Positions 2,977 through 58,440 of a DNA stretch of 64,000 nt are shown here, in pieces; the first letter of the stretch is position 1, and every line of letters begins with the position of its first letter. The notes beneath the pieces are model-generated. The model had not been told where the DNA came from and searched no databases. It worked only from the letters and a program-made list of their open reading frames with translations. This DNA comes from Cordylochernes scorpioides (Eukaryota; Arthropoda; Arachnida; Pseudoscorpiones; Chernetidae): NCBI GenBank assembly GCA_030710605.1, contig CP092865.1:31528190-31592189 (forward strand), in the 5' to 3' direction. Made by a program: the position numbers and the translations under genes.

Positions 2977-3280
2977 TGTCTATTTAATTCATACATATTA
3001 CATACAATTTATTTGTAAATATAACAGGGCATATAGGTAAATATAAGGTGCTATTTTATATTCACTCAATGCAGTGTCAACAGTGTTATATACAAGTCAT
3101 ATAAGGGTGAAATACATTGTGTTTTTCTACAAATAAAACATCTTCCAACTGTGTTTTTCGGAAAAAAAAGATGATTTCGCGCCATAATAATTTCAATAAT
3201 CTTATCTTAAAGATAGAGGCTGCCTGGCCGGCATTCCTAGTTCTTCAAATTAAAGATACTTCTGCCAGCGAATCCTTATA

Positions 3281-3330
3281 TTGTCTCGACGTTTCGACAA
3301 AAATCGTTTGTCCTCGTCAGGAGCGAACAA
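3281..3330 (-). ncRNA. Hammerhead ribozyme motif, intact core
   Basis: Minus strand, 5' to 3'. Helix I 5' strand: TTGT, a 3-nt bulge TCG, then CTC. Core: CTGACGA (position 7 may be any base). Helix II: GACAAA, loop CGATT, TTTGTC, with one extra G before it. Second core: GAA. Helix III: only the palindrome ACGT. Cleavage-site base: C at 3288. Helix I 3' strand: GAG then ACAA, which closes the bulged 7-bp helix. All catalytic-core bases are present. The four-base helix III matches the minimal hammerheads known from Penelope-like elements, which may need to dimerise to cleave. Activity is inferred from structure only. Confidence 0.7.
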
Positions 3331-3412
3331 AAATTAAAACACTTGGCAAAGCGTTAAAAATTATTATAAATAAAGAGAATAATTTTTAACGCCTTGCCAA
3401 ATGATTTAATTT

Positions 3413-3462
3413 TTGTTCGCTCCTGACGAGGACAAACGATTTTTGTTGGAACGTCGAGACAA
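3413..3462 (+). ncRNA. Hammerhead ribozyme motif, core mutated
   Basis: This is the right-arm partner of the 3281-3330 motif, in the opposite orientation. CTGACGAG is at 3423-3430 and helix II at 3431-3447. The second core, which reads CGAAAC in the left arm, here reads GGAAC after TTG, so an invariant A of the GAA core is lost and cleavage is not expected. Helix I strands are still complementary. Confidence 0.6.
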
Positions 3463-3539
3463 TAAAAAAGATTTACTGGCCGAAGTATCTTTAATTTGAA
3501 GAACTTTCAATGATCTTATACAGGTGATTCTCTCTATCT

Positions 3540-3660
3540 CCTTAGATGTTATCAAGAACAACAACAAAAAAAGCTTTTATTATGGCCCATTGCCCTGTAT
3601 GGATTCGCCATACAACAACAAAACAATACAGCAATTCTTTTCTCCCTTTCCCCATGCACA
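3540..3660 (-). mobile_element. LINE/SINE 3' end with AATAAAAGC tail
   Basis: On the minus strand a purine-rich stretch is followed by GGCGAATCC, a degraded hairpin, ATAATAAAAGC and a TTG-rich tail. The same arrangement occurs at 38345-38440, 42025-42070, 62305-62400 and 62470-62530. It is the 3' terminus of a retrotransposon family, with no coding part kept here. Confidence 0.5.
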
Positions 3661-8003: not shown

Positions 8004-9313
8004 CGAGGTGTGTTCAAAAAGTATCGCGACCTTTGAATTTTCGCGGGTTACGTAATTCGAATTTCGATCTTTTTGTGGCTTTATGTTGGTACTCATGTCT
8101 CTCACTTATGCCGACAAGCTCGGCCATTTTGAATGTTCACTTAACTATTGACAGCTGCTTTGCTTGCAGGTGTTTTGGATCGTCTTCGATTTTTACCTAC
8201 TTAAAAAAATGTATCAAAGAACCTGTATCAAATTTTGTGTGAAAAACGAAATTAAGTGCGCGGATGCATTCCGAATGTTGACTGTGGCATACGGAGAAGC
8301 TACCTTGGACCGAAGCAACGTTTATCGGTGGTACAAAATGTTCTCAGAAGGCCGAGAAGATGTGAACGACGAAGAGCGTGCCGGACGCCCGAGCACTTCA
8401 ACAACAGACGAAAAAAATTAATGAAGTGGAGAAAATGATATTGGCCAATCGTCGAATCACCGTTAGAGAAGTTGCTGAGGACCTAAACATATCGATTGGC
8501 TCGTGCCATTCGATTTTTATCAATGATTTGGGCATGAGACGGGTCGCCGCGAAATTCGTACCAAAATGCTCAATTGCGGCCAAAAACAGCATCGCATGAA
8601 CATTGCTAATGAGATGTTGGACTCTGTCCGCGACGACCCAAATTTGCTCCAGAGGGTCATAACTGGTGACAAAGCGTGGGTTTATGGTTATGACGTGGAA
8701 ATCAAAGCTCAATCATCTCAATGGAAGCTGCCGCACGAACCAAGACCGAAAAAAGCGCGCCAAGTTCGGTCGAATGTGAAAGTTTTGCTGACAGTTTTCT
8801 TCGATTGCAGGGGCGTGGTGCATCATGAGTTCTTGCCACAGGGTAGAACTGTCAATAAGGAATATTACCTGAAAGTTATGCGCAATTTGCACGAAGCAAT
8901 CTGCCAGAAACGCCCGGATTTGTGGAAGAACAAAAATTGGCTTTTGCACCACGATAACGCCCCTGCTCACACATCGTTGCTTGTGCGCGACTTTTTGGCC
9001 AAAAACAACACACTAATGATGCCGCAGCCACCGTATTCCCCAGATCTGGCCCCCTGTGACTTTTTCTTGTTCCCTAAACTGAAGAGGCCCATGAAAGGAC
9101 GACGTAGACGAGATAAAGACGGCATCGAAGGAGGAGCTGAAAAAGATTTTTAAAAATGATTTTTTGAAGTGCTTCGAAGATTGGAAAAACCGTTGGCACA
9201 AGTGTATAATATCTCATGGGGATTACTTTGAAGGGGACAAAATAGGTATTCATGAAGAAATAAATAATTTTTGAAAAAACACAAAAGTCGCGATACATTT
9301 CGAACACACCTCG
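8004..9313 (+). mobile_element. mariner transposon, 1310 bp
   Basis: The terminal inverted repeats start CGAGGTGTGTTC. The right end, read inward, is CGAGGTGTGTTCGAAATG, so the ends match with few changes over about 30 bp. TA lies immediately outside both ends (8002-8003 and 9314-9315), as expected for IS630/Tc1/mariner insertion. One transposase reading region fills most of the interior. Full length with clean target duplication suggests a fairly recent insertion, but the transposase is frameshifted, so this copy could move only with help from another. Confidence 0.95.
8209..9282 (+). pseudogene. mariner transposase, broken by three frameshifts
   Basis: This is a cut-and-paste transposase of the DD34D mariner group. 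The ATG at 8209 opens the N-terminal helix-turn-helix domain (IKFCVKNEIKCADAFRML, then RAGRPSTSTTDE). The frame is lost at an A run, 8411-8417, with a stop at 8419. The second DNA-binding helix-turn-helix (ITVREVAEDLNISIGS) continues in another frame to about 8560, then shifts back. From 8566 the catalytic domain has Asp in ITGD (8668-8670), Asp in HHDNAPAH (8953-8955) and Asp in APCDFFLFP (9058-9060). The last two are 34 residues apart, the mariner spacing. A third shift at about 9105 breaks the C-terminus; the rest (KASKEEL-type tail, WKNRWHKCI, GDYFEGDK) continues to a stop at 9280-9282. The catalytic triad is intact, and ITGDE of most relatives reads ITGDK. Confidence 0.93.
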
Positions 9314-24585: not shown

Positions 24586-25765
24586 CATTATAAGAAATAA
24601 AAATATTGAGCACGAATGTTTCTTCCAATTTGTTATACATAGATAGCGCGCTAATGCCGTATGCTTATATCCTATTGATAGCTTGTCACCCAAATCTAGT
24701 TAATGTATACACGAAGACCAACAGGATCTTTGGAACAATCCAGAAAAATCACCAACTTCTGAGGCATTACCAACTTTTGAAATAAGTATTCTAATAATAC
24801 ATATTGTGTGGAAGAAGCAACGCCAACAGCAAAATGTGATTGGAATGGCACAGAAAATATCGTCTTTGCTTTTGGAGAAAAGTGTAAAACTTGGACTACA
24901 AGAAAAGTTAGGATACTTGAGAATATTAAGCGCTACACAGTACACATTTAGGAAATTCCTGTGCAAGGAATGTGTATTTTGTCATCGATAAAGGACTAAT
25001 AAACATTTCGACAAAATGTATTTTTTCTTTAAAAATTGGGATGATACATAAGAAATCAAGAATATATTTAAGAAAGTATATCTTTCATGGCCTATTTCAC
25101 AGAACCATGTTCTGCATACACCATCAGGAAAAGAAATCTGGACTCTGATCTTTTCTCTTCATTAAAGAATTAGGCTGAACGTGACGCCTTGAGGAACTCA
25201 TGACCCAATGCTATCTGCAAAAGACTAATTTTGGGGTCAAGAAATTATCATGATATATTAATGACTTATTTACATCCTTCATGATTATAATTACTGTTTT
25301 ATTACACTCAGTTCACTTATATATAAATATGTATACACGAAGCTTATGCATATTCTAATGGGAATGCAAAATTATTTTACGTACCCTTTAACAAGAGATT
25401 TTAAGTGATTCTTCTTTCGTAGGCACAGTCTTTTGACTGACAGACATCTCAATGATAATAATGTACATCTATATTTTAATATATATTTTCATATTTGCAT
25501 ATGTTTTGTCTTTTCTATAAGTTGAGAGAGAGGGAGGTCTATGTAAGTCTGTAGGATTTCAAATATTTAGAATCTCTTTTTCTGAATCAATATTAGTTTA
25601 AAGAATCTATGAATGAGAGAAAAACAGCATATAATTAAGAAAAAGGCAACCCATAATCTAGCATTTGAAAGGTGCTAATAGCTTTCCCAATATATCGGAA
25701 TAACATCTTATCGTGGAATTCTTTTTTTATTCTATATTATTGTCTAAATATTGATAAATCAAGTC
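24586..25765. other. Unassigned AT-rich DNA
   Basis: No gene is recognised. Overlapping short frames on both strands at 24700-24991 have no family resemblance. Confidence 0.4.
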
Positions 25766-25808: not shown

Positions 25809-26092
25809 AAGGACTGTCTCTCAACGAAAAACAGCTAGTGTTATGTTGTTTGTGTTGCCGTTGTGTGTGTGTTGTGTTTATTGCTCCCAGATACTTCATC
25901 AATGAACGGTTATTCAAGGGCAAAAGTGAATGATAACGCTAAACTATATGATACAAATTTTACTAGTCAATATTATGTAATTTGGCCAACATTCTAGAAT
26001 AATTAAAATTCAAGAGAGAACCCGAGAGATGGCGCATGCCATCATCAACTTTTAGTTACACGTTCAGGAGATGCACATTTTTTTCTGTGTGG

Positions 26093-27125: not shown

Positions 27126-29826
27126 CAAAAAGCACAAATAAATCAAACTTCCTTCATTATCCTCTCTAAACATGTTTATTTTGATGTCGGTAGGTCATTA
27201 AAGTACAGCCAGTACAACACTGACAAGGGACAACGCGTACCTCATTTTTTCTTGATTTATCGAGAAACCTAGATTTTGTTTCTCCTATTTTCTCCTACAA
27301 ATCAGAATATTATATTAGTATTTTTCTAAAATGAAGCGATAGGCCACGATTCTAATTTTACTAAGAAATTCGTTTTGTTGAAATCTGATATCACTTAAAA
27401 CGAAAATAAGTTTGATAAAATTCCACAATACCCCAAAAATGAGATATGAAATATATTGAATACGATAAAAACTACCGAAAATAATAATTTCTATAGGAAA
27501 ATATGATAATATAGGTTTTTAAGATGGAAATTTGTTCGGACACAATCGATGTGAAAATAATTAATTAATAAAAAAGAAATTAAGAAAATACTTTATAAAA
27601 ATACCTAAAGGATAAAACGTAGATATTTATGTTACCGTCATTGAATAATTACAGAGTTATATGAGTAAATTTAAATGCTCAGGTGACAAAAGATACTTTT
27701 TACGGGTTAACACAAAAGTTCAATATACTAGGGCCTGAATTAAAAGTATCTTAACACAGAGAAAACACACAGAAATACAACGAAATAAAAAGGAAGGACG
27801 TGAATAAACCACTCAATTAGTTCTAACAAAACCAATACTTTTCTTTTATTTTCAGTGTTGATAAGGAGCGGACTGGAATTACACAGGTATGCGAGAAGAT
27901 CACCAGACAGACACACAGAGAACGCTTTGAGCGTCTCCACACAATCACCACTCCTCCTCGTATACCGTTTCAACCCTCTTTTATGTACAAACATGGCCAC
28001 ATTCGTCCAATGACGTGGGAGATCGATTTACACTTAACAAATAAACAACATTCCTTCCGCATAACTGAGTAAATTAAAACTGCGTATGTTTGTCAAAATA
28101 TTTGACATAGGGATGATCAAGAATTTCAAACTTTATCTGATTTAATAGGGGCAACTGAATTGTAAGTTTTTATGTTTCAAAAAAAAATTACTTCTTCCCT
28201 TAATATACGATGATCGTTTCCCTCCGTATAATAAATTTTACTCATATAAATCTAATGTTTTATTGTTGGTAGCTCTGATATATTTATTTCCCTCTTTTTA
28301 TATAGTGCAGTTTTATTGAAAGAGCCCTAATTTTTTCTTTAAAGGTTTTTCATTGATTAATTATTTTTATAGTTATTTATAGTTTATATAATTTTTTGCT
28401 GTATACAAAATTTAAAAAATATATTTTAAAAAACACATCAACATTAAGGTATAAATTATTAAATAAAAACACTTTATAATATTAGAATTTATTTTATATT
28501 TATAATATTATTTACATATATATAATTATGTAGCTAGAGAGGCATCGCTCCCTTCAATAATGCATCATATCAATGTATTATATATATATTAATTATTAAT
28601 GTATATTGTGTGTTGGATGGAATTTTAAATATATATTCTCGTCATTCTGAAACGTGCATATGTTGATGGAAACATTATTTTTAAAAATATAGGATAGTTT
28701 TATATTTGCTGACCTTTTATGAGATGTAGCCAGTAATTACAAGACAGAATCGGCTGAGACAATTGTTTGCATTTTAATATAAATATGCAAATTATTCTAT
28801 TCTCGTGATCACCATGACCACCTAGAAGTCTGAAAATTTGTACACTTGCATTGATATATGGATTGGGCGAGTCTTCAAAACTACAGACTTCTACATGGCT
28901 CGTAGTACATTAAAGGTTTATCGAAAAATTTGTATCTAGACAGACATACTGAAAGAAAGACATGAAAAAAAGGCTAATTAAAACCTTTCAAAAAGACATT
29001 TCTTTAGTCACTAGATGTGCAAAGTTTTCGGGAGTATTTTGACATACGAAGAGTTATTTTATAATTAATTTGATCGAGGCACAAATTTAATTCTTACTAT
29101 AGATCAGACCAGTCAATACCTGTTTGACTAATTCAGGATATTCGCATTTCCCTGTGAATCCCATGTCACTCTGGGACATAGCCTGGAACCACAGTCGTGA
29201 ACATTATGAAATTTCCAAAATTGGTGTTAGGACTTTTCTGACCCGAAATTTATATATTTCAAGAGATTATCTAGAGATAGCGCTTAGGATTTAAATCTAT
29301 TGGTGGGGACAGAGTATAGACATGCAATTTATTTTTAAATAAAACCTAAACTAAAATTTAAAATAATTTATATTAATAAATATAACAATAAATTTTGAAG
29401 AAAATATTTCTAAAAGAAATGAAAGCACGCTTTCTGTAATGTATCCTGCTATTTTGCTACAAACACCATATTATCAATTGTATCTTTGTAAAATATGTTC
29501 AGAATTTAGCTGCTGTAGAAGCGGGGCAATTCCAAGTTCATCATTTGAATGCTGAATAGAATATGTGGACGCCATAAAAACTTCCAATTCTTCCTTATAA
29601 ACCATCCATTGTTAGAAGAGATTAAAAAAAAAAAAACTGATACTTTATCCCATTGGGACAGTTGTCTGCTAATGATCTTGGTATTGTGTTAGATCTTTCT
29701 AATTAGTCGTGTTCCCCGAAAACTTTCTTCCTACATCGCCATCCCACCTGTTAACTACAGACGTCGTCGACATAGGTAGTAAATGATGGTAGTTCGACGG
29801 GTCATCATAATCGTATATACTTATAC
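27126..29826. other. Unassigned AT-rich DNA
   Basis: No gene or element boundary is recognised in about 2.7 kb. The minus-strand frame at 27740-28000 has no family resemblance. Base composition is very AT-rich, especially 28370-28640. Confidence 0.4.
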
Positions 29827-33746: not shown

Positions 33747-34096
33747 ATATATATATATATATCTCGGAGTAAGCTAAATAAATAAACGTTTAGTTTATTT
33801 TTACTCCACTAGATGGCGCTCAGCCATCTAAAAAGCACATGTGCTTGTGGTCAGGAGATGCCTTCTTTATTTTTAATATCAACACCTGACCCACTTATCT
33901 TTTATTTTTTTCTATTTTTTTTCATATATATATATATATATATATATAAGTCAAATACACACATGTATACCACATTTTCGATAAGTATTTGTTTGTCTGA
34001 ATATATTATTTTATACTCTTAGAAAAATACATTTTTATTCTAAGACAAAAGAGGTCAAAAAGAGGCCATATTGGGGAATTATTTAATTATATTTCC

Positions 34097-36461: not shown

Positions 36462-36910
36462 TTCAAACGATAGATGGCAATTGAATTCATAAAGTTAATT
36501 TACATACTTTATTGAACCTAACATACAGGTAATCTATTTTATTGACAAAAAAGCTTGAGTCGTAATCTATATATGAATATTGATTGTCAAAATATTGTTG
36601 TGGAACGATATGAATATTAAGTGATTTCAATAGTGTATTGCTATCGATAAGTTATATGCAAATTTTAAAAATCATTTTTACAAATTCGAAAATCCTTTTC
36701 GACAATGAAGAATATAAGTTATAGAGAAGCTAACACTAAAAGTTGTGTAAGTTATCGGATAATTTTAGCACATATAAAGTAGAAATTAATCAATTTTTAT
36801 ATAACAAACTATCTTGTTAATTAAAACAGGCATGGATATGTTGAAAAGGTAATTTGAGGTACAAATAGATATTGATGAAAAATAATCGATGTACTAAATG
36901 AGTAATTAAA

Positions 36911-37180
36911 TTTAAAAAAAGGCATCTACTTATCGTGCAACTGAAAGTTGCTGATGGCTTGCGCCATCTATCGGAATAAATATAAACTATTCTGGTTGTT
37001 TTTTAATTATTCCAGAATTGGCCAAATACCCCTTCTTGATTAATCAAGAAAAGCTAACCACGGACGCGTTTCGGGCTGTTGGCCCTCATCAGCGTGGTGC
37101 AAGCTGTACCTCAACGACCAAAAAAATTGGTCATTAAGGCATCCCGAAAAATCATGAAACGGGTAGTTAAGGCCAGAATT
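36911..37180. repeat. Hammerhead-bearing repeat unit (putative Penelope-type terminal repeat)
   Basis: Order: AGGCATCTACTTATCGTGC module (36920-36985), ~40-bp AT spacer, CCAGAATTGGCCAAATACC, hammerhead on the minus strand (37057-37098), CTGTACCTC, then CCCGAAAAATCATGAAACGG to about 37176. The same order is seen at 46425-46640 and, decayed, at 25766-26080 (reverse order relative to the strand) and 51062-51300. At 57580-57750 the flanks are present in reverse but the ribozyme part is missing. Confidence 0.65.
37057..37098 (-). ncRNA. Hammerhead ribozyme, type I, full consensus core
   Basis: Minus strand, 5' to 3'. Helix I ACCACG pairs with CGTGGT (6 bp, all Watson-Crick). Core CTGATGA is exact. 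Helix II GGGC, loop CAACA, GCCC (4 bp). Core GAA. Helix III is the self-complementary ACGCGT. Cleavage base C at 37063, with cleavage predicted between 37063 and 37062. Every invariant base of the hammerhead consensus is present and nothing is mismatched. The 6-base palindromic helix III gives only two pairs in a monomer, so efficient cleavage would probably need a dimer, as described for the minimal hammerheads of Penelope-like elements. Decayed relatives: 46557-46602, 51062-51105, 25766-25808. Confidence 0.88.
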
Positions 37181-38014
37181 GCGTAAATGAGTAATATTGA
37201 ACTGAATAGTGTTTAGAGAATAGCAAAACCATGAAGGATTATAGAACTGCACAATAAAACAAGTGAAAGGTGTCTATTTTAAGTTTGCAGTTCACCTGCA
37301 ATCACTAATTGGCAGATTAATGCATAAATTGTTTAATTTTGTTACTTTATTTATCTTAAAAAATCGTTTCTATTGAACAGGGAGACGTCGACTCAATATA
37401 TATAGAGAGATATTTAAGAAGATCTTGCTTCTTTCTGACACGATCATCCAAAGAGAAGATCTACAGAAAAAAAGAAGCATTAGAACAAATAAAAAAGAAG
37501 ATGCAGCTCTCCGAAGTAATTTAAAAATCTTTATATATATATAACTCTCACTTCCTCAATCAAGGTTTGAAGGAAAAGAAGAATTGCGTGTGAAACAAGG
37601 CTTGTGTTATTCCTAGATGCCCTTTGAGGAAAGTCGCCGAGCTTCTCTGACAAAAAATAAATTTGACAGATTGAAAATATTGATAGCATGTGGCCTCATT
37701 TTAATTGGTCCATTCATAGTAGAGAGGACAAGTAAAAACGTGAGAGTAAATAGATTTTGTCTATTGTTAATGTTCAAATACTTTTGTTCATAATACATGT
37801 ATTCTTAACTCACTTTGTTATCAAAGTATCTTATTGTATTAACTGACTATATATAAATTGTTACAAAAAAGTTCCTTCGGATTTTAGAATATTTTATATA
37901 GAATTATTGATCATTTGCTTGAGACATGAATATTATTATGATATTTGCTGGTTATTGAGTAAATTGGTACTAAATGGTATTGGTATGCAATCGTGGAAAA
38001 TCGTTAAAATATAA
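37181..38014. other. Unassigned AT-rich DNA
   Basis: No gene or element is recognised. Confidence 0.4.
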
Positions 38015-39631: not shown

Positions 39632-39654
39632 GAAATTGAAAATATTTATAAAAT

Positions 39655-39860
39655 AGATGGCGCCAGAAATCAGAAACTTTCAGTTGCACGATAAGGAGAT
39701 GCCTCTTTAAAAATGTTTTCATATTTCTTATCCGTTTTTTATGCACCTTATCCCAGTACCATATCACATTTGTATTATTTTTTCATATAATATACATAAT
39801 ATAATAGATGGTGCATTGCTATCTGAAAAGCACATGTGCTTGTGGTCAGGATATGCTTTA
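39655..39860 (-). repeat. CAGGAGATGC modules (two decayed copies)
   Basis: TTTCAGTTGCACGATAAGG-AGATGCC at 39678-39706 and AAGCACATGTGCTTGTGGTC, then AGGATATGC at 39825-39857, are reverse copies of the module that precedes the hammerhead at 36911. A further copy is at 33805-33870. Confidence 0.45.
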
Positions 39861-40110
39861 TTTTTTTTTTTATAATATATATTATGTAAGTAATTATACC
39901 TCAAGTTGTAAAAAATGAATTTATTATCAGTTTTGTTGTTTATTTACTATATTTATTCACATTGCAATATTCTCGTACATATTACATTCTCCAATGTATC
40001 TTCTATTAATTTAACTACAGGTTGAGAGAAATGGCAAGACCTGATAACTCTAGAAATATATATTTTTAAAACTTGCGGTAATTTATTTATTGAAATTTTA
40101 TCTACACAGT

Positions 40111-40446
40111 CTTCTTCTTTCTTATCTCCACTCAATCATATTATGGTGTCAAGCTTGATTGGGTGAAGTAGAATGCGTCTGTCTTTGTCATTAAGACTGG
40201 GAGCACTAGTCAGTGGCAGGCCGACTTAGCTCTAAATAAATGACAGCCTCTGACATGAGGAACAGACACCACTTGCAGCCGCTCCTAACATGGAGTATAG
40301 ACGCTGCTCATTCTGTATCCCTGGATCAGGAGCCCTTACAGGGTACTAACAGCTGGGCCAGCTGAGCCCTGTTTTTTTAGTGAGCTTGTTACTGCTCTCC
40401 CTCCTCCTTTTTATTCCGGTCTTGGGACCGCCAAAGGTGGAGTTAA
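40111..40446 (-). mobile_element. SINE-like element, family 1, copy 1 (336 bp)
   Basis: It is flanked by CTACACAGT at 40102-40110 and 40447-40455, a 9-bp target duplication. Minus strand: begins CTCCACCTTTGGCGGTCCC and ends ACACCATAATATGATTGAGT, GGAGATAAGAAAG, AAGAAGA. The copy at 50156-50480 starts at the same base, so this is a full short element and not a randomly truncated LINE. Its last ~45 bp match the 3' end of LINE family A (20565, 24441, 1126), the tail sharing typical of SINEs that use a partner LINE's reverse transcriptase. Confidence 0.7.
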
Positions 40447-40885
40447 CTACACAGTATACCCTGCAATTACTAAACTTTCTAAGATTGATTTTATGTTCAA
40501 TATACCCATAATAATACATTTATATTTATAAAGAAAAAAATTGTAGTATTAATAATAAGAGTAATTTTTAAAAAATAGATAAAATAATTTAAAAAGAGAA
40601 ATGCATGCAAATATATATTTTACAGAGAAGCATGCTTACTCTGATCTAATATAAATAGAAAATAACGAAGAGTAAAAAAGAAAAACAACGAATAAAAATA
40701 AATGGGGAAAAGTTCACTTTTTAGATTATTTTATTCATTTTGATTGAAGAATATCTGGTTCGTTACCCCAGTTGTTTTTTAGACAAGCTCATGACGTGTC
40801 AAAGCCGATTTAAATGCTTGGTTCCGTTGTTAAATCTTGCTGTTAAACAATTTAAATATTTATTGATACATACAGATTATTCACC
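40447..40885. other. Unassigned AT-rich DNA
   Basis: No gene or element is recognised. Confidence 0.35.
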
Positions 40886-45476: not shown

Positions 45477-46424
45477 TATATATATGTAGTAATGTAGTGT
45501 TGCTGTTATCCGGTTGTTGATTGTAGTGTGGCATGTTGGTTGCAGTCGTGGTGACCACAATGATTATAGTGGGTTCAGGCGTGATTGGGATTACACAAAA
45601 GGACGAGGCATGTTGGTTGCCACCATAGAGATGGCGAGAGAGCAAGTGCAGCCGACACCGGTCAGGGGAGATCTGTCTAGAGGAGTCTGTCAAATCTCCT
45701 TTCTCAAAGCGGACTAATCTGTTTGAGTAAGAAAGGGGCACACTTGGGAACGCGACTTGTTTTTCGGACCTATTTTCTCCACTGGCGCCGACTGTCACTC
45801 ACTAGAAATTTTATTTGGCACTTTGGCAATAACACTGCAACTATACAAAACATGGAGACATAGATATACTGTATATTGGAATATATTACAACATATATAT
45901 GTAGTTAATCTTTATTCTGACACGCAAGCAAACTTTTCGAGGGCCCTACGAAGTCATCTGTGGCGTGTGGGTGGATTATCAGTCTAGGAGAGAATTATTC
46001 AGGTTTATGGATACTGTCCACAGAACGGCCAGATTTATTCAGGTGTAAATCACTCTAGCTTGTTGGACACATGGAATATAAATTATCCGCTAAATGTTGT
46101 CATAAATTGTGACACCTTGAATTTTTTTCAGGAAGAGAAGTGTTCCATTTATCGTGTTAATGTTTATTATTTATAGAGAAGCTAGTTTATATGAAACTTT
46201 ATTCTAAAATTGCCAAACTCAAATTACCTTATAAACGTCGGCGTTCCACTCTTCCATTACAGAATTACTGAAATATTTGGAGATGATTTCTTGATATCTC
46301 TTAAAGAATATTGTTAAACCTAAATATTCTGCATGAAGATGACACAGCAGATATGAATACCTATCGAGAGAACTCTGCCATATACTAAATATATGTAAAT
46401 ATGTTAAAAACAAAAAAGGCATAT
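45477..46424. other. Unassigned DNA
   Basis: 45520-45800 is GC-richer, with open frames on both strands at 45445-45798 and 45514-45717, but neither has a recognised domain. No other feature. Confidence 0.35.
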
Positions 46425-46640
46425 CCTGACCAGGTTCACATGAGCATTTCTAGATTTCAGAGAGCGCCATCTAGTAGAATAAAAATAAACTAAGCGTTTA
46501 TTTAACTTGTTCCATCATATTTGGCTAACCTAATTTATGGATAAATCAAGAAATGTCAACCACGAACGCGTTTGGGGCTGTTGGCTCTCGTCAGCGTGAT
46601 GCAGACTGTACCTACTACGATCTCTAAAACAAGAAGCGAG
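46425..46640. repeat. Hammerhead-bearing repeat unit (decayed copy)
   Basis: AAAAGGCATATCCTGACC module, GCGCCATCTAGTAGAATAAA, spacer, GGCTAACC, hammerhead relic on the minus strand, then GCAGACTGTACCT. It follows the same order as 36911-37180. Confidence 0.55.
46557..46602 (-). ncRNA. Hammerhead ribozyme relic, inactivated core
   Basis: Minus strand: ATCACG, CTGACGA, GAGC-CAACA-GCCC, then CAA in place of GAA, ACGCGT, cleavage base T, CGTGGT. The invariant G of the GAA core is lost, so it should not cleave. Helices I and III are kept. Confidence 0.6.
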
Positions 46641-48230: not shown

Positions 48231-48864
48231 AGGTGTACAAGAAACTTAGCTCTGGAAGCTTTATTTATTTTATAATATTATAAATCAGCGAAGAACGTTT
48301 ATTTATAAAATATTTTGGTATATTTTATCAGTTCTCTATCACAAATTGGATTGAAACATTGATAAAAATATTATTCAATACATTTTAGAAACTATTATGA
48401 ATTATATTTGAATATTTCTAAATCGTAATTATATATATTCAAAAGAGTATTGTTCAAATATTTTGAAAGTCTAAATGATATCTATCAAATGGTATAACCA
48501 CAAAATATTGAACAAAATCGCAAAGTTTACTAAAAATATTATTTAACATTCATTGTTGTCATTTCTTAATTATCGCTATATTCACGTTTATTAAAAGGGT
48601 TGAGTCGCAAATGTTACAGAAAATAAATAATTCCTTTTGAGAGTCATCGTCAACATTTCTAGTATCAATAATGCCTATTCAAAAGTGTTTTTAAATGCTC
48701 AAGATTTCTAAAATTGATTATTAAACACCTCTCTTTACAGTATAGAAAAATATATTTTGGCAGATTGGATTTTGAGTAATTTTTCACTTCAACCATTATT
48801 TTTATTCATTTATGACGTTTCGTTAACCCACTGTAACCCTCTTTAAAGAAAACTAATCCTATAA
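48231..48864. other. Unassigned AT-rich DNA
   Basis: No gene or element is recognised. Confidence 0.35.
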
Positions 48865-48867
48865 TTA

Positions 48868-48946
48868 AGAAAAAAAGGCATCTTCTTATCGTGCAACTGA
48901 TGAGGTTGAACTCAGTTGCCCGATTAGGAGATGCCTTTTTTTTTCT
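48868..48946. repeat. Short palindrome of two CAGGAGATGC modules
   Basis: AAAAAAGGCATCTTCTTATC, GTGCAACTGATGAGG and the inverted GTTGCCCGATTAGGAG, ATGCCTTTTTTTTT. This is the module found beside the hammerhead repeats, here head to head. Confidence 0.65.
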
Positions 48947-49274
48947 TAATGCATTTACCTTATCTCAATACAATATCACAGTTGTACTATATTTTCAAAT
49001 AATACTACAATTCTTATTTTTGCCTTTTTATATTTTAGCAAAAGTTAACATAGGGTTAGTTTTCCTATAAAAAGATGACAATGGGTGTAACCGAAATGCC
49101 GGAAATAAAGATAGCTTGAAATGTGTGTGTGGATAATTAATCATATATTTTCAGTCAGATTCAACTCTTTTTATGAACAGAGATAACAAATGGTTGGCCA
49201 AATTGGAAAAGAATGGCAAAAGTTGCAGAATATAAATTTAAATAGTTAAATACATACACGATGCGTCGTTTATA

Positions 49275-49974: not shown

Positions 49975-50500
49975 TATTATCTGTTATCCAAATTCGAAAC
50001 TATTATAGACGCGTTGATTCTTTTTTTAAAAATAAACAATTTCTACTGCCTTTACTGCAATGGAAAAATTAGCCAGGCCCTCCCATTAATTTTTCCATTG
50101 CAGTAAGGGCAGTAGAAATTGTTTATTTAAAAAAAAAAGAATCATAAGCGTCTATCTTCTTCTTCTTTCTTATCTCCACTCAATCATTCATGACTGGGTG
50201 AAGTAGAATGCGTCTGCCTTTGTCATTAAGACTGGGAGCACTACTCAGTGGCAGGCCGACTTAGCTCCAAAAGAAATGGCCGCCTCTGACATGAGGAACA
50301 GACGCCATGTGCAACCGCTCCTAACATGGAGTACAAACGCTGCTCATCCTGTATTCCTGGATTAGGAACCCTTACAGGGTACTATCAGCCGGGCTAGCTG
50401 AGCCCAGGTTTTTTAGTGAGCTTGTTACTGCATCCCCTCCTCCTTTTTCATCCGGGCTTGAGACCGGATAAGGCGGAGTTATAAGCGTCTATAATAGTTT
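49975..50500. repeat. Fold-back element, ACGCGTATGATCC family, split by a SINE
   Basis: Left arm from about 49990 (CGAAACTATTATAGACGCG) and inner arms CTACTGCCTTTACTGCAATG and its inverse. The right arm is interrupted at 50155 by the SINE at 50156-50480 and resumes with ATAATAGTTTCGAATAAAG. The centre has a shortened CCAGGCCCTCCCATTAAT. Confidence 0.75.
50156..50480 (-). mobile_element. SINE-like element, family 1, copy 2 (325 bp) with 12-bp target duplication
   Basis: ATAAGCGTCTAT is present at 50144-50155 and again at 50481-50492, an exact 12-bp duplication made when the element inserted into the fold-back at 49975. Minus strand: AACTCCGCCTTATCCGGTC to ATGATTGAGTGGAGATAAG and AAAGAAGAAGAAG. 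The 5' start is the same as in the 40111 copy. No protein coding. No convincing A or B box was found at the 5' end, so the promoter type is open. Confidence 0.78.
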
Positions 50501-51105: not shown

Positions 51106-51299
51106 TTAGTTTCCAACCAACTAAGATGGGTAAATATGATTCTTTTTATAATTCAAGGATTTTCTTTTTAAATCAAGAAAGGTAATTTGCCAATTTTCGG
51201 AAACAAAAATATCGGTGTTCAGTTGATGTTATACCTGATAATTCCATGAAGCCATCAAAAACGTTCAGTTGCATGATCAGGAGATGCTCCTTTGTTTTT

Positions 51300-55593: not shown

Positions 55594-55614
55594 GTAAGAG
55601 GAGAATTAGGAAAA

Positions 55615-55700
55615 ATAATTTTCTTGATCGTGCAACTGAAAATTGCTGATGGCTTGTGCAGTCTTTAGGAATAAATAACAATTAGCCGTTGATACTTATT
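55615..55700 (+). repeat. CAGGAGATGC-family module (decayed)
   Basis: TTCTTGATCGTGCAACTGAA, then AATTGCTGATGGCTTGTGC, matches the module at 36920-36985. No hammerhead follows. Confidence 0.45.
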
Positions 55701-56582
55701 AAAGATAGTAATGAAAGCCTTCAGGAACTTTGAGTTCCACGATCGAGCGACACCTTTGACTTAATTTAACGACATAATCCAGTACAGTTTCAATTTTGTA
55801 ATATTTTATCAATTGAAATGAGAGAATTTCTTAATAAACATGTACCAACTATATTTGTATTCCCTATTCCGTCCTTAAGAATGACTTACCCTTTCAGGAA
55901 AACATCAGTAATACACACACCTTTCTGCATCTCTTGTTTCGGTTAGGACTTTCTTCCGCATCAAGTCCAATTCAAACGATGAGAGCATCTTCTGCAATAA
56001 ATTTTGGAAATGTCTTTATAAATATCCAAATTTGTGTTATATATAGAATTTATTTAATTGTCAATATATATATCTCGGAGTAAATATTCAATACCTATGA
56101 GCAATACTGGGATCAATACAGAAGTCGCCCAGAGAATATTAGGAGAAGATTCTTTTTTAATTATCTCTAGTACACGTGGTACACGCCATGATAATCATTG
56201 TGGGTAGTTAGCGACTGCTTTTACTGTAAGTACACAGAAGAAGAATTGATGTTCAAAATGTGAGTTATTTGGATATTAGATTTAAGATATTATATGTACA
56301 TAGAATTCTTCAATGTCCACGGCTACAAAGGAAAAGATCAATATTAGGAGTTTCTCATGCCTATAAGGATAACAAGTTACAAATTGACAAGCTTTTTTTT
56401 TCTGACTCATTAATGATTTGAACTTTGTCTAACTGTACTATAATGTCTCAACGCACAAAATATTAGAATATCGTTTAAAATTAACTAGAAAACACCAGGT
56501 GTAATGGAGCTACGAATCCCAAGTACATGTGGTACAGGCCATGATAATCGGGAGAGCCGTTGAAACATTTTTTTCAGAAAAA
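55701..56582. other. Unassigned AT-rich DNA
   Basis: A phrase ending CCATGATAATC occurs twice, near 56180-56210 and 56525-56560 (GTACACGTGGTACACGCC and GTACATGTGGTACAGGCC), a loose direct repeat. Nothing else recognised. Confidence 0.4.
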
Positions 56583-56928: not shown

Positions 56929-57246
56929 ATATATACAGTTATCAGCGTCATAATCAATTCTTTCTTAATCAATTCTGTCACAGTTTGCTTTGTGAATGGA
57001 ATAAATACCCAAATATGGCCATTTCTCATAACCATCGGTGGTTCAGTGGTAGAATGCTCGCCTGCCACGCGGGCGGCCCAGGTTCGATTCCCGGCCGATG
57101 TATTTTTTTTTTTACAATTTTAAAACTCATTTATATATTATACAAGAATGACATCCACGGCGCCAATTTATAATTGTAACGAATAGTATTTGAATAAAAG
57201 CATTTAATCGGGTAAACCCCGGGCGTTGCGCGGGTCATTCGCCTAG
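56929..57246 (+). mobile_element. Helitron, non-autonomous, about 318 bp, carrying tRNA-Gly
   Basis: The 5' part ATATATACAGTTATCAGCGT matches the starts of 29827 and 39131 (TC decayed). The 3' part GCGCCAATTTATAATTG, hairpin CGGGCGTTGCGCGG and GTCATTCGCCTAG (CTAG 57243-57246), then T, matches the same family. It lacks the TTAA MITE of the other two and instead holds the tRNA sequence. Confidence 0.75.
57032..57102 (+). tRNA. tRNA-Gly(GCC), near-intact, inside a Helitron
   Basis: The 71 nt fold as a cloverleaf. Acceptor CCATCGG/CCGATGT pairs 6 of 7, with position 1 C against 72 T. D arm GTTC/GAAT. Anticodon stem CTCGC/GCGGG with loop CTGCCAC, anticodon GCC at 57064-57066. T arm CCAGG/CCCGG with loop TTCGATT has one A-C mismatch where functional genes read CCCGG. 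Discriminator A at 57102. A box TGGTTCAGTGGTAGA and B box GGTTCGATTCC look intact. A run of 11 T starts at 57103, a pol III terminator. The two defects and the Helitron setting point to a captured, recently decaying tRNA gene; transcription is still plausible. Confidence 0.75.
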
Positions 57247-57576
57247 TAAGCATAATAAAAGGAAGAAATATATTCCTCGGAATAGCTTCAAATATTTCTC
57301 AGTTTGCATACATATAAGCACCACTTTTATTACCTACATATTTGAATATAAGAATGCATTTTCCAATACTCAACAGCAAACAAATCACAAATCGACCTTT
57401 CCATTTGGTGATTGTCTCTAAGTCTCGATTCAGCACAGAATACGAAAAAGGTACCGCCACTTTATTTACACTTACTGACTAAGTTACAATGTTAAAAAAA
57501 AATCGAATGATCTCTATACATATATCTCCAATTCACATTCGTACTATTTTTTTTCACATTTTTTCGTTTTCTCGCG
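57247..57576. other. Unassigned AT-rich DNA
   Basis: Nothing recognised. Confidence 0.35.
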
Positions 57577-57760
57577 CACTTTCGGCCTTAACTACCCGTT
57601 TCATGATTTTTCAGGATGCCTGAATGACCATTGGGTATTTGGCCAATTCTAGAATAATTGAAAATCAACGAATAGTTTATATTTATTCTGATATGTAGCG
57701 CAAGCCATCAGCAACTTTCAGTTGCACGATAAAAAGATGCCTTTTTCTTAATTTATTCAC
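57577..57760 (-). repeat. Hammerhead repeat unit lacking the ribozyme
   Basis: GGCCTTAACTACCCGTTTCA, TTTTTCAGGATGCC, AATGACCATTGGGTATTTGG, CCAATTCTAGAATAATTG and the TCAGTTGCACGAT module are the reverse of 36911-37180. About 95 bp (37033-37127, which holds the ribozyme) are absent at 57630-57634. Confidence 0.65.
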
Positions 57761-58440
57761 CTGATCCCAGTACAATTTCACATTTGTACAATTTTATCAC
57801 ATATATCTTCGTAAAATGCTGTCTTTCTTCATATGTTTTCAGGCTGTTGACCGTAGCTGTGAACAGGATGTGACACGGGTCATTCACTCTGTAAGATCAC
57901 CATCTGAAAGTTTTCAGATAAGTTCCTGAGTGCCATTCCTGATGTCATCAATTCCCCGGCAATTTCTATCAATTTCTAACGAGATTGGTTCCCCACGCCG
58001 CATTTTCCCTCTACGTGATCTATCTTCTATGTCTCCACAATTTCCCCTTCGCTTTTATCATTTTTTGAAAGGCCCCTGAGGAATTTCGATTTCAATCAGT
58101 CATTTATTCTATAAAATTGTTTTCTTTCCTTTTTTAATGTTTATATATAATATTATATAAAATGTAACTTGTAGTATAGAAATATTGTCTAAATATTTTA
58201 GGTTCATATAATTTTAATACAAAATTTCTTCTAAAAATGTTCGTATTTATTATTACAAACAATCAGTAAGCTCACGAAAAACTTATATACATATTGGTTA
58301 TGCACATAGAGTTATAAACATATTGATTATTTACCTATGTAATTGCTCCATGTTGCTCAAGCAATAGCAAAAGCAAAACTCATTACAAAAACCAAAATAC
58401 CCCAGCCCATATGCAACCTAAACATTAATAGAGAAATAAC
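57761..58440. other. Unassigned DNA
   Basis: 57840-58080 is somewhat GC-richer; no gene recognised. Confidence 0.35.

Follow-up and report, generated by a model that had tools for sequence, protein, structure and literature searches.

A hammerhead ribozyme of the pseudoscorpion Cordylochernes scorpioides belongs to a retrozyme that is probably moved by a Penelope-like element

What kind of element carries the hammerhead motif on the minus strand of a stretch of Cordylochernes scorpioides DNA, and how is this element moved? Few settings harbour hammerhead ribozymes as commonly as animal retrozymes do. The stretch, here called the window, comprises 64,000 nucleotides (assembly GCA_030710605.1, contig CP092865.1, positions 31,528,190 to 31,592,189) and is numbered from its first nucleotide. 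We consider it probable that the hammerhead belongs to a metazoan retrozyme without long terminal repeats (non-LTR retrozyme), moved by the protein of a Penelope-like element (PLE), which probably copies RNA rings. Four papers (PMC7229834, PMC7761336, PMC11167929, and PMC3846280) are cited below from excerpts of their text.

The ribozyme lies at the following positions, of which the first two are read from the sequence and the third from the match to Rfam:

37057 to 37098, minus strand: type I hammerhead ribozyme (core; helix I of 6 bp, helix II of 4 bp, helix III a 6-nt palindrome)
37062 to 37063, minus strand: predicted cleavage point, between 37063 (C) and 37062
about 37043 to 37108, minus strand: extended hammerhead including the outer helix I, as covered by the Rfam match to HH9 (26.5 bits)

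Read along the minus strand, ACCACG (37098-37093) opens helix I and is followed by the core CTGATGA (37092-37086). Helix II consists of GGGC (37085-37082), the loop CAACA (37081-37077), and GCCC (37076-37073). The 3' half is made up of GAA (37072-37070), the helix III palindrome ACGCGT (37069-37064), C at 37063, and CGTGGT (37062-37057), which closes helix I. The position of the cut was assigned by the hammerhead cleavage rule. Core, helices, and coordinates are as a sequence-only reading of this DNA had given them, and its predicted cut agrees with ours. An outer helix AGCT/AGCT past an internal loop, which was absent from that reading, lengthens the hammerhead to about 37043-37108. The ribozyme has an internal loop in helix I and a loop 2 of 5-6 nt, candidates for loop 1-loop 2 tertiary contacts.

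The loose core pattern alone matched once in the window against 0.46 expected, and at least once in 41 of 100 shuffles. Together with at least 4 pairs in helix I and at least 3 pairs in helix II, it occurred once in the window and in none of 400 simulated windows (dinucleotide make-up matched to the window; exhaustive scan of combinations), which bears out the earlier judgement that chance assembly of the core and two helices is unlikely. The genome-wide copies of the core described below and the simulated windows together rule out a pure chance motif. Folding of the bare 48-nt motif is no better than that of shuffles (z -0.81; 41 of 200 equally good), and the whole 338-nt repeat unit folds better than shuffles (z -8.37; 0 of 100). 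The hammerhead in the window is confirmed as real.

We searched the 2.62-Gb assembly (24 contigs; all repeat counts are lower bounds) for copies of the motif. The 30-nt core of the window's family, family A, is found with up to 3 mismatches at 29,720 places or more, and the core of a sister family, B, at 3,601 or more; the reversed-pattern control gave 0 for both. Together, the two families contribute about 33,000 hammerhead motifs. The family A unit is mostly 338 bp long in a tandem locus, with variants of 339-350 bp, and has a GC content of 40.8%. Tandem units of family B measure 343-352 bp; the 351-bp unit of locus L044 has 39.3% GC and is 68% identical to the family A unit. No ATG frame of more than 50 amino acids is present in concatemers of A and B units (longest, 50). 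A third family, C, was found at L040 (1256-1322) and L041 (1809-1871), with a longer helix III palindrome in L041. At both loci, we read family C as continuing into family B sequence, which resembles a template switch.

Eight sequences, chosen from families A, B, and C, retain the fold, with pairing in 98.3% of the 117 cells and changes on both sides in 8 of the 16 pairs. For four of five measures of this conservation, none of 500 shuffles reached the observed value; for the fifth, 14 did. Among the listed family A clusters, 67 of 79 are single motifs. Satellite DNA as the whole story is ruled out, as the copies are mostly dispersed and show target-site duplications.

The copy in the window is built as follows:

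36907 to 37183, minus strand: retrozyme copy of family A with intact hammerhead, less than one unit (unit positions 218-338, then 1-156; repeat alignment)
36895 to 36906, no strand: target-site duplication TAAATGAGTAAT, left copy (sequence)
37184 to 37195, no strand: target-site duplication TAAATGAGTAAT, right copy (sequence)
37033 to 37050, minus strand: perfect 18-nt palindrome TTCTTGATTAATCAAGAA, 3' of the ribozyme, near-identical in family B (sequence)
36961 to 36969, minus strand: AGATGGCGC motif, retained in A and B units (motif comparison)
36907 to 36926, minus strand: 3' end of the copy, corresponding to reverse-transcription start site 1 (unit position about 156; alignment)

The insertion is 277 bp long and flanked by a perfect 12-bp duplication TAAATGAGTAAT; its end at unit position 218 recurs in L015 and L019. 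The suggestion that the hammerhead belongs to a small non-coding, ribozyme-bearing retroelement thus gains support from the short insertion, its duplication, the lack of a frame above 50 amino acids, and the many dispersed and tandem copies. Overall, the elements combine an intact type I hammerhead, tandem non-coding units of low GC content, and a target-site duplication of more than 4 bp. Judged by this anatomy, the identification as a retrozyme is firm. With a single ribozyme and an incomplete unit, the window copy should give no rings by itself. It is probably a dead insertion, the ribozyme of which may still cut a host transcript.

How these elements are moved can be approached through the ends of the insertions. 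Matches were merged to 88 rows, of which 75 remained after removal of duplicates by their flanks; duplicates of a single array at contig edges (L023-L026) were still among them. The arms of the retrozymes end at unit positions 143-164 (site 1) or 195-212 (site 2), about 50 nt apart. There were 39 rows with inverted pairs of arms, four of which are views of one array, and 13 were dropped since an end lay at the locus edge or outside both ranges. In all 26 scorable pairs, the two arms end at opposite sites (12 one way, 14 the other), which under independent and even choice has a probability of 1.5e-8. The 41 single arms end at site 1 in 28 cases, at site 2 in 10, and at neither in 3. Of 63 insertions, 15 are flanked by a non-simple direct repeat of at least 10 bp, whereas mismatched flanks predict 1.05; neither count includes matches made of AT repeats. 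A literature search of shallow coverage, with few subscription journals, returned no report of opposite-site inverted pairs for retrozymes.

Inverted pairs could in principle arise when a single complementary DNA snaps back and primes itself, as has been suggested for Penelope inverted repeats (PMC3846280), or by later recombination between copies. Snap-back predicts equal outer ends, and yet the stretch between the two sites, the tail, is present on one arm only in 26 of 26 pairs. Furthermore, the whole inverted pairs L002, L010, L011, and L027 each lie between the copies of one direct repeat of 12-14 bp. We regard an origin by snap-back or recombination as highly improbable.

A precedent for two sites exists in PLEs. 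In PMC11167929, the reverse transcriptase starts at two adjacent internal sites and both DNA strands are extended; the sequence that separates the two sites makes up the tail of the genomic copies. The excerpts mention no strand difference in the choice of start site. In PMC3846280, one of the inverted pseudo-LTRs (pLTRs) bears a tail of 31 bp. We therefore turned to the PLEs of the same genome, where a GIY-YIG profile gave 146 scored matches. Among Penelope-type elements, 25 of 26 3' ends fall at query positions 250-272 or 290-310, ranges that were chosen after inspection of the data. The Penelope-type inverted pairs have one arm per site in 5 of 5 scorable cases, a sixth being unscorable. 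Because this opposite-site footprint is common to the retrozymes and the PLEs of the genome, and a two-site tail is tied to a PLE protein by PMC11167929, a PLE is the likely mover. The sequence-only reading had drawn the PLE link from the short helix III. This is a hint only, because axolotl retrozyme hammerheads have it too (PMC7229834), and the insertion footprint is the better link.

Thirty-two PLE loci (L057-L088) were analysed, 30 of them about 3 kb long. The frame of L087 contains RVT_1 and GIY-YIG (Pfam), and three tRNA matches lie inside this locus. L088 (contig 1, 8985000-8994000) is a near-perfect inverted repeat of more than 4.3 kb with a frame that carries GIY-YIG, the sole Pfam match, at the N-terminal end; we read it as a PLE with permuted domains. 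Both L084 and L087 have, by our reading, a hammerhead-like stretch close to the 3' end, with no Rfam match. A piece related to the retrozyme at E <1e-5 is present in 4 of the 32 loci, and a hammerhead found by scan in 2. We read these pieces as nested or separate retrozyme copies, none of them a terminal repeat.

This bears on the idea that the repeat is itself the solo pLTR of a PLE family with unseen coding copies, the insertions being pLTRs only or 5'-truncated PLEs. PLEs are indeed abundant in this genome and likewise show inverted arms and a tail between two sites, type I hammerheads occur in their pLTRs (PMC7761336), and tandem pLTRs are known (PMC11167929, PMC3846280). However, up to 20 head-to-tail units follow each other at one-unit spacing and leave no space for a coding frame, the sequence of the Penelope-type 3' ends differs from that of the retrozyme, and the related pieces in the four loci are unlike terminal repeats, although loci of about 3 kb do not provide a full test. 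Hence, we find the pLTR explanation improbable.

Target-primed reverse transcription by long interspersed nuclear elements (LINEs) would likewise agree with 5' truncation and with duplications of about 12 bp at the target site, and we count this in favour of mobilisation by a LINE or another reverse transcriptase instead of a PLE. LINEs or PLEs are listed as candidate movers in PMC7229834. The rule of one site per arm, followed by 26 of 26 retrozyme pairs and matched by 5 of 5 pairs of the genome's PLEs, speaks against a LINE, as do the two start sites and both-strand extension described for a PLE protein (PMC11167929). We give a LINE or similar mover a slim chance.

With a PLE protein as the likely mover, its template can be considered. 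Neighbouring ribozymes on opposite strands are divergent in 23 of 24 cases among the first 100 listed places per family. Within insertions, the spacing is regular: one with 6 + 6 units has ten same-strand gaps of 343 each, another has three of 350 each, and one with 4 + 20 units has 21 of 22 gaps at 351 or 352 and one at 345. The modal unit length is equal in both arms in three of the four insertions with intervals in each arm. Units also resemble each other more within than between insertions, with median differences of 1.8% versus 5.7% in family A and 4.1% versus 12.3% in family B. In L027, the full units of both arms show 0 differences, and in L044, there are 0-4 in 351. As a separate observation, L093 (contig 1, 4128550-4129650) repeats 115 nt of the unit, taken from around the ribozyme, with an unchanged junction, perhaps as a copy of a mini-ring.

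The alternative is that the template is the uncleaved multimeric transcript of a homogeneous array, without any ring. In PMC11167929, ribozyme mutants leave PLE insertion in vitro unaltered, and its authors regard unprocessed RNA as the main substrate. Mixed arrays like L055 would also suit a mixed source. Against a multimer, the arms agree in modal length in three of four insertions while lengths vary between insertions, and a 20-unit arm of about 7 kb would require a very long RNA. We regard the multimer as a serious but rather doubtful candidate, and the ring as template is favoured.

On these grounds, retrotransposition may proceed as follows. Retrozyme arrays would be transcribed, and the ribozymes would cleave the RNA into pieces one unit (about 338 nt) long, which could be closed into rings as shown for other animals (PMC7229834). 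A Penelope-like protein with GIY-YIG endonuclease and reverse transcriptase would make a staggered cut and thereby give the duplication that is observed, about 12 bp in length. Both DNA strands would then prime with their 3' ends on the same RNA, each using a different one of two internal sites spaced by about 50 nt; this one-site-per-arm pattern is observed, and the priming would follow PMC11167929. By rounding a ring many times, the enzyme could lay down the divergent tandem arms of single unit length that we see. Where a single arm is made, or is all that survives, a short copy such as that in the window would result. The most specific form of this scheme is a dual rolling circle, in which a dimer of the PLE protein primes each nicked strand at its own site on the same ring and lays divergent arrays; here, we judge the chances to be evenly balanced. 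If true, the dual rolling circle would tell which enzyme moves animal retrozymes and would explain why hammerheads and tandem structure are common to PLEs and retrozymes.

Several observations weigh against the proposed retrozyme, PLE mover, and ring template. The insertions studied were not random but the best-scoring, the first-listed, or those near PLE matches. No PLE with the retrozyme ribozyme or tail was found in the 32 PLE loci, 30 of which span only about 3 kb. Nor is there significant similarity between the retrozyme tail and the Penelope-type tail (shuffles as good in 86 of 500 for A and 219 of 500 for B), a comparison that covered one Penelope-type tail, the end of L088 lying outside the analysed stretch. 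The tails also differ in length, with about 50 nt in retrozymes and 30-40 nt in the Penelope type.

Concerning the template, the two arms of the pair at C1:7583283 differ in unit length (347 and 350), and L055 has one switch of unit type within the insertion, which might mark a jump of the enzyme to a new template. For insertions with at least two segments, the nearest other insertion was closer than the own units in 12 of 19 cases for A and 9 of 11 for B. Because another insertion is so often closer, unit identity does not prove one ring per insertion. Inner ends are scattered across the whole unit, and 2 of 110 sit exactly at the cleavage point, although part of the 110 are alignment breaks and not true ends. 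The self-cleaved linear monomer as the usual template is thus unsupported; because of the two exact ends, cleaved linear RNA may be an occasional one.

Concerning the ribozyme, a scan of the window with Rfam gave no hammerhead at the gathering score. The sequence-only reading had named the lack of a covariance match above threshold as a refutation, and such a match did not appear. The best match at the motif is Hammerhead_HH9 with 26.5 bits against a cut-off of 52 (E = 1.9e-4 in a 501-base search and 0.024 for the whole window). Even the best of 58 scored candidates in the genome, a sister-family copy with 41.8 bits, stays under the cut-off. Given this ceiling and the stronger repeat and covariation evidence, we do not take the low score as a refutation. 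Finally, copies were chosen by flanking anchors for a decay sample (39 printed, five array repeats dropped, 34 left). In these 34, the core is intact in 26, and 13 match the common sequence throughout; the mutation rate is 2.8% at core positions versus 0.6-3.1% in the other parts of the motif, which gives no sign of selection on inserted copies. Inserted copies look neutral.

The window contains further pieces of these elements:

48863 to 49000, no strand: retrozyme remnant, inverted pair with arms ending at sites 1 and 2 (alignment)
55604 to 55815, no strand: retrozyme remnant, inverted pair with arms ending at sites 1 and 2 (alignment)
25627-25763, 25980-26084, 33779-33922, 39653-39866, 46412-46613, 51160-51287, and 57535-57802: seven further A/B retrozyme remnants
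3203 to 3512, no strand: Penelope-type PLE 3' remnant, inverted pair with arms at PLE sites 2 and 1 (alignment)

The AGATGGCGC motif occurs 6 times in the window (26027, 33811, 39655, 36961, 46464, and 23863) against 0.09 expected, and five of the six occurrences fall inside retrozyme remnants. A literature search on this motif gave nothing useful. We take it to resemble a CTCF-type core, and because of this look, retrozymes may disperse protein-binding sites.

The only stop-to-stop frame of at least 150 amino acids in the window is a transposase piece at 8527-9153 (plus strand; Pfam Transposase_1), which we read as mariner-like. The earlier statement that no reverse transcriptase lies nearby therefore holds for frames of this length, the window's PLE being a 3' remnant; shorter reverse transcriptase fragments were not searched for. 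A tRNA-Gly(gcc) gene is located at 57032-57102 (plus strand). Two matches to the type-P1 twister are on the minus strand at 50431-50485 (46.9 bits) and 40395-40449 (34.1 bits; cut-off 67.2), and each opens a 337-bp stretch. As this stretch is shared by both places at 86% identity, it is probably the 5' end of a retrotransposon. Elsewhere in the assembly, TTAGG repeats gave 748 overlapping matches, of which the first 100 listed cluster 4.1 Mb inside contig 1. TTAGGG repeats gave none, and this difference points to an arthropod.

Among known systems, the element in the window is a retrozyme of a known kind, the metazoan non-LTR type (Cervera and de la Pena 2020, PMC7229834). As here, those retrozymes have a type I hammerhead, non-coding tandem units of 170-400 nt, a GC content below 45%, target-site duplications of more than 4 bp, and PLEs in the same genome. 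The likeness is one of description rather than of compared sequences. The two-site footprint with inverted arms was not seen in PMC7229834, in the main text of which the word "inverted" is absent. The retrozymes of axolotl and newt come close, with units of 330 and 350 bp, a very high copy number, and, as here, a very short helix III; in those animals, the ribozyme works better as a dimer (PMC7229834). They reach 126,247 motifs versus about 33,000 for A and B here, in a different animal.

The minimal hammerheads of PLEs and Terminons are likewise of type I with a short helix III (PMC7761336); in contrast, the present ribozyme has a helix I extended past an internal loop and a 4-bp helix II, and its unit has no coding frame. 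PLEs have been argued to move retrozymes only from coexistence, common hammerheads, and tandem structure (PMC7229834, PMC7761336, as excerpted). The retrozyme insertions described here carry a footprint that biochemistry has linked to a PLE protein, and with about 33,000 motifs in the two families, there is ample material for testing mobility by PLEs. The opposite-site pattern can easily be sought in the retrozymes of mussel, coral, and axolotl.

The closest biochemical counterpart is the Penelope/Poseidon element of Anolis (Frangieh 2024, PMC11167929). Like here, its adjacent start sites appear as a genomic tail, both DNA strands are cut and extended, and its targets are AT-rich, which we count as a likeness. 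It is a coding element with a tail of 30-40 bp and a template thought to be unprocessed, whereas here, the unit is non-coding, the tail is about 50 nt long, and the two arms end at opposite sites. The insertion footprint is the new part of this work, and it adds opposite start sites within one insertion to the earlier biochemistry.
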